NCBI GenBank assembly: GCA_016188625.1
Contig: JACPHL010000058.1
Span: 1-6,286, forward strand
Direction of reading: 5' to 3'
Source: Candidatus Rokuibacteriota bacterium
Lineage (GTDB): Bacteria > Methylomirabilota > Methylomirabilia > Rokubacteriales > JACPHL01
Length of the DNA stretch: 6,286 nucleotides
The notes under the pieces are model-generated. The model worked only from the letters and a program-made list of their open reading frames with translations. It searched no databases and was not told where the DNA came from. The translations under genes were made by a program, and so were the position numbers. This document shows, piece by piece, positions 453 to 6,286 of the stretch. Numbering within the stretch: the first letter of the stretch is position 1; each line of letters opens with the position of its first letter.

Positions 453-530
453 TGGCGGGGTCGACGGGACTTGAACCCGCGGCCTCTGGATTGACAGTCC
501 AGTGTGCTAACCAGGCTGCACCACGACCCC
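453..530 (-). tRNA. tRNA-Asp (anticodon GUC), CCA encoded
   Basis: The - strand folds into a complete cloverleaf. The acceptor stem is GGGGTCG (530-524) with CGACCCC (463-457). The D stem is GTGC/GCAC with TGG in the loop. The anticodon stem is CTGGA/TCCAG around loop CTGTCAA, with anticodon GTC at 495-493 on the complement. The variable loop has five nucleotides. The T arm is GCGGG-TTCAAGT-CCCGT, with one G.U pair. The discriminator base is G and CCA is encoded at 455-453. GUC reads the Asp codons GAC and GAU. The mature body is 75 nt plus CCA. It appears to be a single-gene unit with its own promoter and terminator. Confidence 0.96.
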
Positions 531-743: not shown

Positions 744-1490
744 TCACGGCTTGACGTGCAGCACGTGGGCGTTGACTGGCTTGTCTATCCCCTTGAGATG
801 GCAGACACGGGATTCTGCCTCCGGAAAGAGACCCTCTACGTGGCGATACACCTCCTCCGTCACCAGTACCTCGCCCGGCTGGGCGGCCCCCTGCAATCTG
901 GCTGCGAGATTGACGACCGGTCCAAAGGCGGTATAGGTATAGTCCTTGCAAAATTCGCTCAACTCCCCGATGGCCACATCCCCCACCTGAATCCCCACAC
1001 CGATACCGACGGAGACCCCCTCAATCTGGTGGATCTCACGAGACCTTTTTTGCAACTCAATCCCCGCCATGACCGCCTGTTGGACATGGTCTCCCTGCTT
1101 GATAGGCCAGTTGAAAAGCGCCAGGACGGCATCGCCGATGAGCTTGTTGACGATGCCATCCCGTTCCCAGATCGCAGAGGCGCAATTTTCGTAGAAACGG
1201 CTCAAGATCCGGGCAACCTGGGGAGAGTCTAAGGATTCGGAGAGACTGGTGTAGCCTCGCAGATCGGCAAACAGGACGGTGGCTGGAACGCCGATCTGTT
1301 TTGTTCCCCATTTTTTGAATCGGATAATCCGCGCAAACCACTTTTCACACATGGTGCAGACATTGGGGTTCATGCGGCTGATGCGGAGACCGACCAACCG
1401 AAATGGAATAGACAGGGGCCCTCGGATGACGACAGGCGCATGCAGCTGAGACCAACACCCCTTGCAGATCATGGATCGTGACTTGTGCAT
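744..1490 (-). CDS. Class III adenylate/guanylate cyclase with N-terminal double-CxxC (zinc-ribbon-like) module
   Basis: This 248-residue protein ends in one class III nucleotidyl cyclase domain (about 68-245) that would form a homodimer and make a cyclic nucleotide from an NTP. The two metal-binding aspartates are D76 (FADLRGYTSL) and D120 (NKLIGDAVLALF). K116 fits the base-recognising lysine, and T187 (YTAFG) sits where class IIIa enzymes have Asp. N194 and R198 (VNLAARL) are the transition-state residues. The set looks complete and points to a class IIIb adenylyl cyclase. Residues 1-50 hold C9-x2-C12 and C45-x2-C48, a likely zinc ribbon and perhaps a sensor or contact module. No TM segment is evident, so it is probably cytoplasmic. 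The ATG at 1490 has a weak AAGG 9 nt upstream; the second ATG (1472) would also keep both CxxC pairs. Hand-counted GC over 961-1200 is about 57%, well below the neighbouring genes, which suggests a different origin or age. Confidence 0.92.
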   Translation of the reverse strand: MHKSRSMICKGCWSQLHAPVVIRGPLSIPFRLVGLRISRMNPNVCTMCEKWFARIIRFKKWGTKQIGVPATVLFADLRGYTSLSESLDSPQVARILSRFYENCASAIWERDGIVNKLIGDAVLALFNWPIKQGDHVQQAVMAGIELQKRSREIHQIEGVSVGIGVGIQVGDVAIGELSEFCKDYTYTAFGPVVNLAARLQGAAQPGEVLVTEEVYRHVEGLFPEAESRVCHLKGIDKPVNAHVLHVKP

Positions 1491-1885: not shown

Positions 1886-2158
1886 GTGATCATCGTGACG
1901 GATCGCGCGAAGGAAGAGCTCAAGAAGGCCCTGTCGGACGCCGAGGCCGAGCCGGGGGTCGGCCTGCGCATGGACGCGAGCGCGCCCGGGCAGTTCGGGC
2001 TGGTGCCGGACCGTGAGCGGGAAGGCGATGAGGTGGTCGAGCACGACGGGACCCCGGTGCTCTTCCTCAGCGAGGAGCTCTCCACCGCCCTGGACGGGGC
2101 CACCATCGATTGTCGGGACACCCCGGAGGGGCAGCAGCTGGTGATCTCGAAGGAATAG
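1886..2158 (+). CDS. HesB/IscA-like (A-type Fe-S carrier fold) small protein lacking the cysteine ligands
   Basis: This 90-residue protein lines up over nearly its full length with the A-type iron-sulfur carrier fold (IscA/HesB/ErpA). The N-terminal helix VTDRAKEELKKAL comes first, then PGVGLRM, then a strand pair ending in the EGDEVVEHDGTPVLF segment, then ALDGATIDC. Canonical members bind iron or a cluster through three cysteines, one in SGCSG and two in a C-terminal CGCG. Here the first site reads APGQFG and the protein ends at ISKE with no CxC tail. C76 is the only cysteine and is not at a ligand position. Cluster carriage by the usual mechanism is therefore unlikely. It may be a structural or regulatory relative; HesB-like proteins without cysteines exist but their role is not known to me. 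GTG start. It converges on the membrane-protein gene, with 47 bp between its stop and that gene's ancestral stop. Confidence 0.85.
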   Translation: MIIVTDRAKEELKKALSDAEAEPGVGLRMDASAPGQFGLVPDREREGDEVVEHDGTPVLFLSEELSTALDGATIDCRDTPEGQQLVISKE

Positions 2159-2205: not shown

Positions 2206-4975
2206 TCACGGGGACGCGCCCACCCGATAGGCGGTGCGCCTGATGTCGGGGTTCATGGCATTCCCGTTCAGGTAGAGCGCGGTCAGTCCCGTTCAGGTAG
2301 AGCGCGGTCAGCACGGTGTACGTCCCGGGCTCGAGCCGGTCCTTGAGGGTGACGGTGAAGACCCCGTCCTCGGCGAGCCGGGCCCGGCCCGCCAGCCGGA
2401 CCGTCTCGTCGGCGCCGATCACCACGTAGCGGCACTCCGGGGTCTCCTGAGCCTGAACGCCTGCGGAGGCCTTCCCGAGCGGCTCCCGGACGATCTCGTA
2501 GGTCCGCTGGTACTTCATGATCCGCTCGACCTCGACACGGATCCTCAGCCCGTCGGCGTCCGTCTCGATCGCCGCGTGGTACGCCCGGCGGGGGATCGCG
2601 TAGGCGTCGAAGGAGCCCACGCCCAGGGGGTAGCTCATGTCCCTGAAGACCTGGAGGACCACGGCCTCCGGCGACCACTGCTCCAGACGGTACGGCCCGT
2701 TGGTGACCAGGAAGTGCCCGTGCTTCGCCTGGAAGGCCCTCAACGCCGCCCATCGCTTCCGGGCCTCCTCCGCCGTGGCGAATCCCTTCAACGGCTCGGG
2801 CACATACCCTTGCCCCTCGAAGGCCTCCGCCAGCGAGGCGAGCCGCGCCTTCAGCCCTTCGTCCCGAACGAGATCGAGCCAGGCCACGCCCCTGCGGTCG
2901 GCCTCCTCGCGGGAGAACGCCGCCCACCCACGACCCACCGCCTCCTCCATGAGGGCGAGCACGTGCCAGGGGAGGCTGCTCCAGGGCGGCGCGATCGCGG
3001 CGAGCTGCTCGGCATCCCCCCGGGCCGCGGCGAGGTAGACCTCGACCACGGGCATCTCCTGGACCAGGGTGAGCTCGCCGAATCCCCGGGTGGCCCGGTC
3101 CACCCGGATCACCCTCACCCCGGCCAGGCGCTCCCGGAGCAGGGCGGTGGCCCGGTCCACGGCGGGGTCGTAGCGGGTCCCGCCTGGGGCCCCGGGGATG
3201 CCCCAGCGGAAGGCGAACCCGTAGGGGTAGAGGAGGTCGGCCGCGGTCATCCGCGTCCCGTCGTGAAAGGCCGAGGCCAGCAGCCGATAGGTGAGCTTCG
3301 CCTCCGCCGGCGCCCCTTCCTCGACCGGCCGGAGCCGCCCCGTTCCCGGCTCGGGGAGGAGCGCGTCGGGCGGGACCCGGACGATCTCCTGCGGTGGGGC
3401 GGCGGAGAGGGCGGGGCCGCTCTCGACGATGGGCTGGGCGAGGATCCAGAGGCTGACCACGGTGTAACCCACCATGAGCGCGGACATCGGGTACTGGCTC
3501 CGGACCGCCGCGCCCCGCGCCTCGAAGACCCGGACGGCGACGGCGTGGGCCAGGTAGACCGCGACGATGTGGCCGAGCACGATGGCGGTCACGGCGGTGT
3601 ACCAGGCGAAGCGCGCCCCGACCACGCCGATGTCGATCCGATACCCCGCGGTCCCGAGGAGGTTCCAGCCGAACCCGAAGGGGTCCGAGGCCAGGGGGAT
3701 GATGAGCTGGCCCTGGATCAGGAGGTAGGAGAGATAGTGCGCCAGATGATAGGCGAGGGCGATGGGGACGAGCGTGAAGACGAAACCCCGCGCCAGCTCC
3801 CCCGTCCCGAGGCGCCCGCCGCTGGCCGCGCCCATGAGCTTGCTGACGGCGAGATATGCCCCCAGGAAGAGCACGGGGAACGAGAGCAGGCCCAGGGTCT
3901 GGGTGAGGATCAGGTGGGCCCCGCTGACCCCCGGCAGGGCCGCGACGAGGAGTCCCTCCAGCCCCCCCCAGGCCGGCGTGGCCATGAAGCCGTCGAAGGT
4001 GACCGCCGAGAGCATCAGGAGCACGAAGGCCGCCATGGAGGGGGAGACGGGCTCGTTCCGCAGGAGCCCGACGGCCCAGGGGCGGAGGTTCCACTCCCGG
4101 TCGGCGCCGGCCGCCCGGCCGAAGCAGTCGTAGCAGTTGACGCACTCGCCGTCCCGATCCCGGCAGCCGAGGCCGCAGGCCTCGCAGACCGCCGGACGGG
4201 CCACGCGGACCTCCGTCGGCGCGAACCGGGCCAGCACCCCGAAGGCCAGCGAGAACGCCTCGCCGTGTCGGAGCCACCGCTCCCTGCCGAACAGGTACAT
4301 CCCGGCCCAGGTGACGATCGAGTAGGCAAGGGCCAACCCCGCGAGGTGGGCGGGCCAGATCCGGCCCGGCCACACCAGCTCCACCCAGGAGAAGGCCAGG
4401 AAGAGGGCCACGGCAGGCCAGACCCCCAGCGCCTCCGGGTAGGGCACGCGGAGGGAGAGCGTGTCGCCCGCGCCGAGGCGCCGGGAGAGCGCCTCCGCCC
4501 GCACCTTCCAGGGGTTGACCAGCGCCCACAGGTTGCCGACCAGGGCCGAGACGTACGCCAGCCCCACCCACCAGATGATCCACACCAGCGCGGGGGCGAG
4601 GTTTCGCATCGGGTGTGGATCTCCCAGCAGCCCGGCGAGGAGGAAGACCACGAAGAGGAGCACCGAGGCGAGCTTCAGGGGAAGGCGGACGGCCGGGCGC
4701 GCGAGGAAGCCGACGGGCGTCCCGAGGAGGTTGAGGCGCGGGTAGCGGCGGAGGCCGGGTGCCCCTCGCACGAAGGCCCCGATGACCACGAAGGAGAAGG
4801 CGACCGCCGCGCCGGCCCCCCAGAGGTAGAGCCCCAGCGGGACCGGCAGGTCGTAGCGCTGGCCGAAGCCGTGGGCGAGGACCGGGACGGGGCTGCCCAG
4901 TCCCAGCAGAGACACGAGCCCGAGGATGAGGCGCCCCCAGAGACGCGGGCCCGGGGCTGGCGGAGGCTTCGGCAT
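2206..4975 (-). CDS. Polytopic membrane protein with cytoplasmic Cys cluster and periplasmic SBP_bac_5-like domain; frameshifted near the 3' end
   Basis: Numbering is from the ATG at 4975. A signal-like or first membrane segment covers 13-34. About ten TM helices follow, near 48-69, 101-118, 127-152, 184-202, 209-230, 314-332, 353-377, 397-420, 457-481 and 497-517. Arg-rich loops fit an N-in topology. The loop between the fifth and sixth of these has six cysteines (C264-x2-C-x3-C-x6-C-x2-C-x2-C284) and is predicted cytoplasmic. TM helices 397-420 and 457-481 carry histidine pairs (YHLAHY; GHIVAVYLAH). Residues about 520-914 should be periplasmic and recall SBP_bac_5 peptide/nickel-binding proteins (SAFHDGTRMTAADLLY at 568; TNGPYRLEQWSPEAVVLQV at 758), ending in a beta-rich part. 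The preceding gene stops 1 nt before the ATG, suggesting translational coupling. A 25-bp tandem duplication (2262-2311) shifts the frame after residue 896, so the literal frame runs to 1787. One repeat copy would give an 18-residue ending and a stop at 2206. Family not recognised. Confidence 0.85.
2262..2311. repeat. Perfect 25-bp tandem duplication causing a frameshift
   Basis: The segments 2262-2286 and 2287-2311 are identical and adjacent. 25 is not a multiple of three, so the - strand membrane-protein gene changes frame after the Leu-Asn-Gly of its VLTALYLNG segment. With one copy deleted, the frame continues as NAMNPDIRRTAYRVGASP and stops at 2208-2206. That ending suits a beta-strand C-terminus and leaves the neighbouring + strand gene free of overlap. 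Confidence 0.95.
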
Positions 4976-4976
4976 C

Positions 4977-6116
4977 TCACTCCTCACGGGTCGATCGGAC
5001 GTCGGCGATCCGGTTCAGGACCCAGCCGGCGGCGTAGGGCGCCGGGACGAGGGCCGGGTCCCCGACCGCGAACCAGACGAGGCTGCCGGCCGGATCCGTG
5101 AAGCCGGCCACGGGGTTCCACGCCGCGGTCTGGTCCGCGTCGATGCCCAGGCGCAGCCAGCCGTTCCAGGGAAAGTCCTTCAGCTTCACGGTCCTGAGAA
5201 ACAGGGACGAATGGAAGCCCGTGAGCGAGTCGTAGCCGAGATTCTCGATCCCGTCCGAGTACTCCGAGTTGAAGTACCACCGCCTCGGCGTGTAACCCAC
5301 GACGAGCCGCTCGCACCCTCGGGTCAGCTGCCGGACCAGCGCCCGCTCGAGATTCAGCTTGTCGGTCGGGGTCGCGTACTCTCCCCGCCAGAGCCGCGTG
5401 AAGACGGCGTCTACCTCCCCTCGGGCCGCGTCGCCCAGCGCCCCGGCGAGGAGCCGATAGGCGTGAAACCACCCCTCCTTCACCCACGGCGGTCCGAGCC
5501 AGCCGTTCAGCGCGAGCATGCGAGACGCGACCAGGCCGGCGACCTCGATCTCCTCGAGGACGGCATCGCCCTCTCCCGCCGCGGCGCGCCACCGGGGCGG
5601 GATGAGCGCCTGGACCAACTCGCCCCTCGCCCGCACCGAGAGCGCCGGTCCCGTCGCCGTTTCCTCTTCCGTTCGGCTCAGGTACCGATCCCTGGCGGCC
5701 TCGGCCAGGTCGGCGTGATGGAGGTACGCCTCGTGATAGGGCGTGATCGGGTACGGGTGGAAGACGAAGCCGCTCTCGGCCCGGCCCAGGGCCTGAACCA
5801 TCGCCCTCATGGCGGCGCAACGGTCTGCCTCCCCGGCGCGCGGGGAGGCCTGGAGCGTGAGGACCAGGTAGGAGCCGAGGGTCTCCACGTAGCTCACGGC
5901 GGCCGGCCTCTTCGCGCGAAACGCCGGCACCTCCCCGAGGTACGCGTGGAGGTCCCCCGTGGGGAGGCGGCGGGCCGCGGCGGCGGGATCCACGGTCTCG
6001 ATCCGGATCTCCTGCGGGTAAAACGAGGGGTAGATCGGCAGCTCGTGCCCTCCGTCGGCGCGCGTGAGCACCATGACCGAGACCGCCAGCAGGACAGATG
6101 CCGAGGTCTTTTTCAT
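4977..6116 (-). CDS. Secreted (periplasmic) protein of unknown family, histidine-containing
   Basis: The 379-residue product starts with a Sec signal peptide (MKK, hydrophobic run about 6-18, likely cleavage near residue 20), and the mature part opens HELPIYPSFYPQEI. No TM helix follows, so it should be periplasmic. I do not recognise the family. Visible are a histidine-rich patch at about 120-134 (FHPYPITPYH, then LHH), two cysteines (C100 and C268) that could form a disulfide, and aromatic segments such as WYFNSEYSDGIENLGYDS near 280-298. The histidines could bind metal, but this is inference. The ATG at 6116 is preferred over an in-frame GTG at 6152. The GTG sits at the predicted transcription start, and the ATG puts the signal peptide at the true N-terminus. 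Neither has a good Shine-Dalgarno site. Its stop is 1 nt from the next gene's ATG, so both products probably act together. The Dpp/Opp-like permease gene lies just upstream on the same strand. Confidence 0.8.
   Translation of the reverse strand: MKKTSASVLLAVSVMVLTRADGGHELPIYPSFYPQEIRIETVDPAAAARRLPTGDLHAYLGEVPAFRAKRPAAVSYVETLGSYLVLTLQASPRAGEADRCAAMRAMVQALGRAESGFVFHPYPITPYHEAYLHHADLAEAARDRYLSRTEEETATGPALSVRARGELVQALIPPRWRAAAGEGDAVLEEIEVAGLVASRMLALNGWLGPPWVKEGWFHAYRLLAGALGDAARGEVDAVFTRLWRGEYATPTDKLNLERALVRQLTRGCERLVVGYTPRRWYFNSEYSDGIENLGYDSLTGFHSSLFLRTVKLKDFPWNGWLRLGIDADQTAAWNPVAGFTDPAGSLVWFAVGDPALVPAPYAAGWVLNRIADVRSTREE
4979..4984 (-). promoter_or_regulatory. Shine-Dalgarno site for the membrane-protein gene, inside the end of the upstream gene
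   Basis: AGGAGT on the - strand overlaps the last codons and stop of the secreted-protein gene; the order reads AGGAG-TGAG-ATG. It favours the ATG at 4975 over the in-frame GTG at 4987, which has no purine-rich site upstream. The short spacing (4 nt) and stop-start proximity suggest translational coupling. Confidence 0.7.
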
Positions 6117-6158
6117 GGAGCGGATGGGGAGGAGCTCACGGCGGGACCTCACGGGCCT

Positions 6159-6234: not shown

Positions 6235-6286
6235 CTACCGCGGCGCCAGGCGGGGGTCCAGGGCGTCGCGCAGCCCGTCCCCGAGC
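6235..6286 (-). CDS. C-terminal end of a Dpp/Opp/Nik-type ABC transporter permease (DppC-like; 5' part outside the window)
   Basis: On the - strand the frame entering the window from the right edge reads LGDGLRDALDPRLAPR and then stops at TAG (6237-6235). LGDxLRDxLDPR(L) is the characteristic last segment of the second inner-membrane permease (DppC/OppC/NikC family, BPD_transp_1) of peptide and nickel ABC importers. Only 16 residues are visible, so substrate and subfamily cannot be told. It runs in the same direction as the secreted-protein gene, 118 nt from that gene's ATG. The chance that this short match is accidental is small but not zero. Confidence 0.8.
   Translation of the reverse strand, partial: LGDGLRDALDPRLAPR

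Follow-up and report, generated by a model that had tools for sequence, protein, structure and literature searches.

Binding proteins of the SBP_bac_5 class are regarded as single chains that are either free or lipid-anchored. The stretch of DNA analysed here (the window: 6,286 nucleotides of Candidatus Rokuibacteriota bacterium contig JACPHL010000058.1) holds a gene in which a periplasmic part resembling such a solute-binding protein (SBP) is joined to a polytopic membrane protein (MEM), and it raises the question of whether this joining is genuine, how much of a binding protein it contains, and what purpose the combination may serve. The reading that we consider fairly probable is that the window encodes one binding protein in two pieces, which would assemble into a flytrap anchored to a MEM of copper/redox type. 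The argument relies on the following features:

2206..4975, minus strand: fused gene MEM-SBPc, read from the ORF and its translation, homologues and an AF2 model as a signal peptide followed by a 10-TM protein, then lobe I of a circularly permuted cluster-C SBP and an Ig-like domain
4874..4975, minus strand: signal peptide, residues 1-34, with a predicted mature N-terminus at His35 (V-L-A/H-G-F-G)
3422..4873, minus strand: MEM, ten predicted TM helices, N-out/C-out; by topology and homology a distant homologue of NapH/NosR-type Fer4_5 membrane ferredoxins, lacking the Fer4_5 cysteines
4124..4186, minus strand: six-Cys cluster CxxCxxxC-x6-CxxCxxC, residues 264-284, in a cytoplasmic loop; facultative in the family
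2600..3397, minus strand: SBPc, most of lobe I, residues 527-792, with FHDG and GPY motifs; assigned from the structural match to 7fi3_A and homology to the C-halves of contiguous relatives
2206..2593, minus strand: C-terminal Ig/filamin-like beta domain; residues 795-896 match filamin/GH2 beta-sandwich domains at a middling Z of about 6.5
2259..2308, no strand assigned: 25 bp tandem duplication (96%), by which the frame of the last ~20 codons is shifted
4977..6152, minus strand: SBPn, a separate exported protein of 391 aa with a likely start at ATG 6116; N-half of the permuted SBP (lobe II with the initial strands of lobe I)
6235..6286, minus strand: 3' end of a DppC-type permease gene (contig L145)

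The fused gene and its membrane part

The fused gene starts with an ATG at 4975 on the minus strand and, as assembled, its ORF extends to 1787, because the 25-bp duplication throws the last codons out of frame. In the alternative frame the protein ends with ...ALYLNGNAMNPDIRRTAYRVGASP*, which agrees with the tails of the homologues, and a stop at 2206 is thereby supported. The duplication is either an assembly error or a real lesion, and the same contig also carries an N gap with repeated flanks; these two defects are what speaks for an artefact, in which two genes would have been joined through an assembly or frame error. Neither of them lies at the MEM/SBPc junction, however, and MEM and SBPc are fused in frame at 13 other loci in several phyla and classes (Rokubacteria, Alphaproteobacteria and Muproteobacteria), so that the fusion is not an assembly error and the artefact is hardly credible. 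The homologues of the fused protein (L004/L033-L044, L055) show 45-64% identity to it, and its AF2 model has a pLDDT of 87.4.

The preliminary description of this DNA, made by reading the sequence without database searches, had already given the gene's coordinates and reading frame, about ten TM helices, a cytoplasmic loop with six cysteines and intramembrane histidines, all of which were borne out, the ten helices by those of the AF2 model and the positive-inside rule. With K+R counts of 5, 5, 12, 1 and 1 in the inner loops and 1, 1, 0, 0 and 2 in the outer ones, the C-terminus of MEM is predicted to be periplasmic. At the other end, A34/H35 is kept in 97% of relatives, His35 in 40 of the 41 aligned, and nearly all members of the MEM family have an Ala immediately preceding this His, a pattern that points to signal-peptide cleavage before His35. 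The family carries invariant His/Asp residues; among the intramembrane histidines, His413 and His469 are invariant (41/41) and His477 is nearly so (40/41). The six cysteines (264, 267, 271, 278, 281 and 284, all in the cytoplasmic loop) behave differently, being present in about 18 of the 41 relatives and missing from nearly all alphaproteobacterial fusions. Thus, the cluster is optional in the family and cannot be the core of its mechanism, and a core metal/redox site at this position is ruled out as a general feature.

As to the affiliation of MEM, residues 52-516 match, at E 1.8e-17, a protein (G037:C70, locus L137) with two Fer4_5 stretches and a sub-cutoff NapH match. More generally, the window's taxonomic order contains distant paralogues, with about 30% identity and E values down to 1.8e-17, that have two Fer4_5 motifs and weak NapH/MauN matches, and the homology of the membrane core to NapH/NosR-type Fer4_5 proteins extends over its full length. 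The Fer4_5 cysteine motifs (CxxCP) themselves are absent from MEM: VWCLACPFG of the paralogues aligns with LWALVNPWK, and FCRHLCP with RWLRHGEAF, while the six-Cys cluster is aligned with the second of the ferredoxin regions. Judged from these alignments, MEM is a cysteine-depleted relative of the NapH/NosR-type membrane ferredoxins; it resembles the NapH/MauN/NosR-type proteins in its homology to two-Fer4_5 proteins with a weak NapH match, and differs from them in lacking the Fer4_5 cysteines and in having a six-Cys loop that is optional. Searches with the whole fused protein against Pfam and NCBIfam returned marginal matches only, and the copy of MEM searched separately had no Pfam match at E up to 10. 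CopD (PF05425) likewise gave no match in MEM at E up to 10, whereas a CopC-CopD neighbour at another locus does match, and BPD_transp, the ABC transmembrane domain, has no match in the window protein, which is therefore not a GlnPQ-like ABC permease with a fused SBP. A fold search with MEM returned only membrane proteins at Z <= 6.1, none of them usable, which is not proof of a new fold. The annotation of MEM relatives as "fenitrothion hydrolase" was dropped as a lead, as the phrase was met only in insect-microbiome papers and plasmid homologues are annotated as "hypothetical protein" or not at all.

Fer4_5 membrane proteins form a family (L136-L139, L129), several with a filamin/YtkA-like N-terminal domain. 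The gene of one of them (L139) adjoins multihaem cytochrome c and cytochrome b genes, and in the window's own genome (L129) two such genes lie side by side.

The periplasmic part, its neighbour and their contiguous relatives

The C-terminal periplasmic part comprises about 370 residues and had been likened to SBP_bac_5 proteins on account of two segments, FHDGTRMTAADLLY and NGPYRLEQWSPE, both of which are present. This kinship was recovered only marginally with Pfam, as SBP_bac_5 reached E=0.042 at residues 747-779 of the window protein, or 13.4 bits against the 32.4 of the PF00496 gathering score, which the relatives (at best E 1.2e-4) do not reach either. A profile built from the contiguous relatives introduced below, on the other hand, finds OppA 7fi3 at E=1.3e-19, and the window model superposes on 7fi3_A with a Z of 21.3 (rmsd 3.2, 252 aligned), the match covering lobe I. 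The last domain has an NCBIfam match to choice_anch_X (E 0.0054, below its cut-off). A complete two-lobed fold had been anticipated after the last TM helix; according to the model, the fused part is instead lobe I plus an Ig-like domain.

The remainder of the binding protein is encoded next door. The stop codon of SBPn and the ATG of the fused gene are one base apart on the minus strand, and in each of the 10 fused loci where the upstream sequence is long enough to tell, one of them the window, SBPn lies directly before the fused gene. In many Rokubacteria, SBPn and residues 525-896 of the fused protein correspond, end to end, to a single contiguous protein of about 770 aa (mostly 44-57% identity), with SBPn mostly 44-56% identical to its N-halves and SBPc 46-57% identical to its C-halves; the split point of the window falls within a variable linker of these relatives. 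SBPn also retains the strands with which lobe I begins, as far as WNP...NR.

The AlphaFold model of one contiguous relative (pLDDT 84, pTM 0.86) indicates how the halves are arranged. Its residues 328-657 match archaeal OppA 7fi3 from residue 34 of the latter on (Z 26.9, rmsd 2.5, 305 aligned), and its residues 34-322, equivalent to SBPn, match residues 204-507 of DppA, and also SapA and others, at a Z of about 10-11 with about 250 aligned, so that this segment is folded like the DppA/SapA C-terminal half. When profiles were compared with those of canonical SBPs from the same genome, the outcome agreed weakly with this permuted direction: the C-part matches the canonical N-half at E 6.5e-4 and the N-part the canonical C-half at 0.015, against 0.24-0.38 for controls with wrong pairings and reversed profiles. 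On model and profile evidence, then, the contiguous protein is a circularly permuted cluster-C SBP with an added Ig-like domain. Both lobes of the cluster-C fold are found in the contiguous relative, and in the window lobe I is assigned to the fused protein and, by homology, lobe II to SBPn; the halves do not follow each other canonically in a single chain, the order being permuted and the chain split.

Among known systems, OppA of Thermococcus kodakarensis (7fi3), DppA and SapA share both halves of the fold (lobe I with a Z of 21-27 to 7fi3, lobe II with a Z of about 10-11 to DppA/SapA), and differ in that the window system has permuted halves, an added Ig-like domain and a chain in two, one part of which is fused to a membrane protein. 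GlnPQ and similar transporters have SBPs fused to an ABC permease, and thus also join a binding domain to a polytopic membrane protein; in the window, the fusion partner is no ABC permease and only half of an SBP is fused. GlnPQ is named, with its SBD1 and SBD2, in PMC6450668. Natural circular permutation of a bilobed SBP has a precedent in TpMglB-2 of Treponema pallidum, a "cluster Bc" SBP whose authors consider that permutation and membrane anchoring may be linked (PMC4990184). The permuted order of the window system is of this kind, but in cluster C rather than cluster B: TpMglB-2 has the cluster B sugar-binding fold in the single chain of a membrane-tethered lipoprotein, whereas the window has two chains and a polytopic fusion. 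The split SBP would offer a test case for the proposed tie between SBP permutation and membrane anchoring. Literature searches, incomplete in coverage, brought up no split or tethered SBP made of two chains, and no permuted cluster-C SBP shared between two chains of which one is fused to a non-ABC membrane protein.

Origin and spread of the split

The conservation of the split/fused set across several bacterial groups marks it as a real, if unusual, design. The N-half tree and the C-half tree each place every split row on one side of a single branch (support 98/97 and 98/86, respectively), which fits one origin of the split. Among 95 searched genomes of the window's phylum, a full-length match to the fused protein was found only in the window's own genome and in G037, and the contiguous protein in many. 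For the history of MEM we rely on a quick tree, in which most fused rows group together, with a free MEM (L047) inside this group and two Acetobacteraceae fusions (L040, L041) outside it; in the latter, MEM may have been swapped, or a long-branch effect may explain the placement. In L047, from a Muproteobacterial MAG, separate neighbouring genes encode MEM, LivJ and the contiguous protein, plausibly the state before fusion, although the position of L047 inside the fused rows could instead mean a later separation.

The ancestor would thus have been an exported cluster-C (DppA/OppA-like) SBP of about 770 residues, circularly permuted and extended by an Ig-like domain. Its chain would have been cut, in the window's lineage, in a loop inside lobe I, leaving a first piece, the free exported SBPn, that comprises lobe II and the opening strands of lobe I, and a second piece, with the rest of lobe I and the Ig domain, that became joined to the periplasmic end of the ten-helix MEM. 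Two contiguous permuted binding-protein genes occur in tandem at L119 (6363-11205, plus strand), and at L044 (2-10049, plus strand) a contiguous permuted SBP and the split/fused set share one gene cluster, with Liv-type genes between.

Candidate roles of the putative assembly and its gene neighbourhood

In the periplasm, SBPn and SBPc would most likely come together as a single two-lobed flytrap on MEM: both halves are conserved and adjacent, they share one history, and lobe I is incomplete unless each of them contributes strands. That the halves have instead parted ways, SBPc-Ig serving as a periplasmic docking domain of MEM and SBPn acting alone, seems rather unlikely to us. Each half is a separate chain, lobe I and the Ig domain are predicted with high confidence as a compact unit, and the cupric reductase CcoG, which has two 4Fe-4S clusters, also ends in a periplasmic Ig-like domain (PMC7558416); yet the first lobe I strands kept in SBPn would be useless without SBPc, and neither half has drifted far from the contiguous relatives, the two being neighbours at every locus where this could be tested.

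If the pieces do assemble, the flytrap would be expected to bind a solute and, with less assurance, it would probably deliver or sense the substrate of MEM. The preliminary description had suggested a link to metal or redox chemistry or to signalling. No signalling domain was found, and this half of the suggestion is not supported; the other half loses the optional Cys cluster as its basis and gains support from the Fer4_5 homology and from cupredoxin and CopC/CopD neighbours. At seven loci (L035, L037, L038, L039, L042, L044 and L055) the fused gene is directly preceded by a cupredoxin gene, which is absent from this position in the window, L033 and L040/L041. The gene ahead of a free MEM is in many cases cupredoxin-like, weakly YtkA-like or of the CopC-CopD-cytochrome c kind. 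Given these neighbours and the Fer4_5 homology, MEM probably handles copper or electrons. CcoG, with its copper role and C-terminal periplasmic Ig-like domain, is comparable in layout, and the CopC-CopD fusions YcnJ and PcoC-PcoD (PMC7558416) likewise combine a periplasmic binding domain with a polytopic protein, CopC-CopD-cytochrome c genes adjoining some free MEMs; MEM differs from them in having no match to the CopD profile and an SBP lobe, not CopC, as its periplasmic domain. A more specific idea, that ligand-driven or ligand-stabilised assembly of the lobes switches electron or copper transfer through MEM, would make the system a transporter-independent use of a binding protein, as a two-polypeptide Venus-flytrap receptor, but we hold it to be doubtful. 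At L132-L135, divergent free MEM genes adjoin genes for a LivJ-like protein and a Liv-type transporter, in some cases with an amidohydrolase close by.

The gene neighbourhoods also bear on a different assignment, in which MEM would be a mere anchor or accessory and the assembled flytrap a second receptor of the neighbouring Liv/Urt- or Dpp-type ABC importer. At most Rokubacterial loci, the contiguous protein is encoded directly between a UrtA/LivJ-like binding protein and LivH/LivM/LivG/LivF genes, and alphaproteobacterial split loci follow a LivJ-H-M-G-F (Liv/Urt-type) set. In the window's contig (L145 6235-11083, minus strand), genes for DppC, DppB, a canonical SBP_bac_5 protein and an M55 D-aminopeptidase immediately precede the split binding protein, all on one strand, with the N gap inside dppC. 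However, these transporters each come with a receptor of their own, no transporter genes adjoin L033, and MEM, as a conserved family with invariant His/Asp residues and a cupredoxin partner of its own, exceeds what an anchor would need. As the operon context varies (Dpp-type in the window, Liv/Urt-type in Alphaproteobacteria, none at L033), a transporter partner of the split SBP is unlikely to be fixed, and we regard the importer assignment as possible, though clearly less probable than a flytrap anchored to a copper/redox-type MEM. Against the latter stand the window copy itself, which lacks the cupredoxin gene and has the frame-shifting 3' duplication, and the L040 and L041 fusions, which the quick tree does not place with the other fused MEMs. 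A permuted SBP cut within a lobe, shared by a free and a membrane protein and kept across bacterial groups, would amount to a natural split-receptor system, and it would provide a first functional lead for the widespread MEM family.

Three further genes lie in the window. A small IscA/HesB-like protein is encoded at 1889-2158 (plus strand), convergent with the fused gene; its match to Fe-S_biosyn (E 5.6e-5) is below the cut-off and, having a single cysteine only, it is without the usual cluster-binding cysteines. A tRNA-Asp with anticodon GTC was detected with ARAGORN at 453-530 (minus strand), and a class III adenylate/guanylate cyclase (744-1490, minus strand; Pfam E 9.6e-20) has two CxxC motifs in a short N-terminal part ahead of its catalytic domain.
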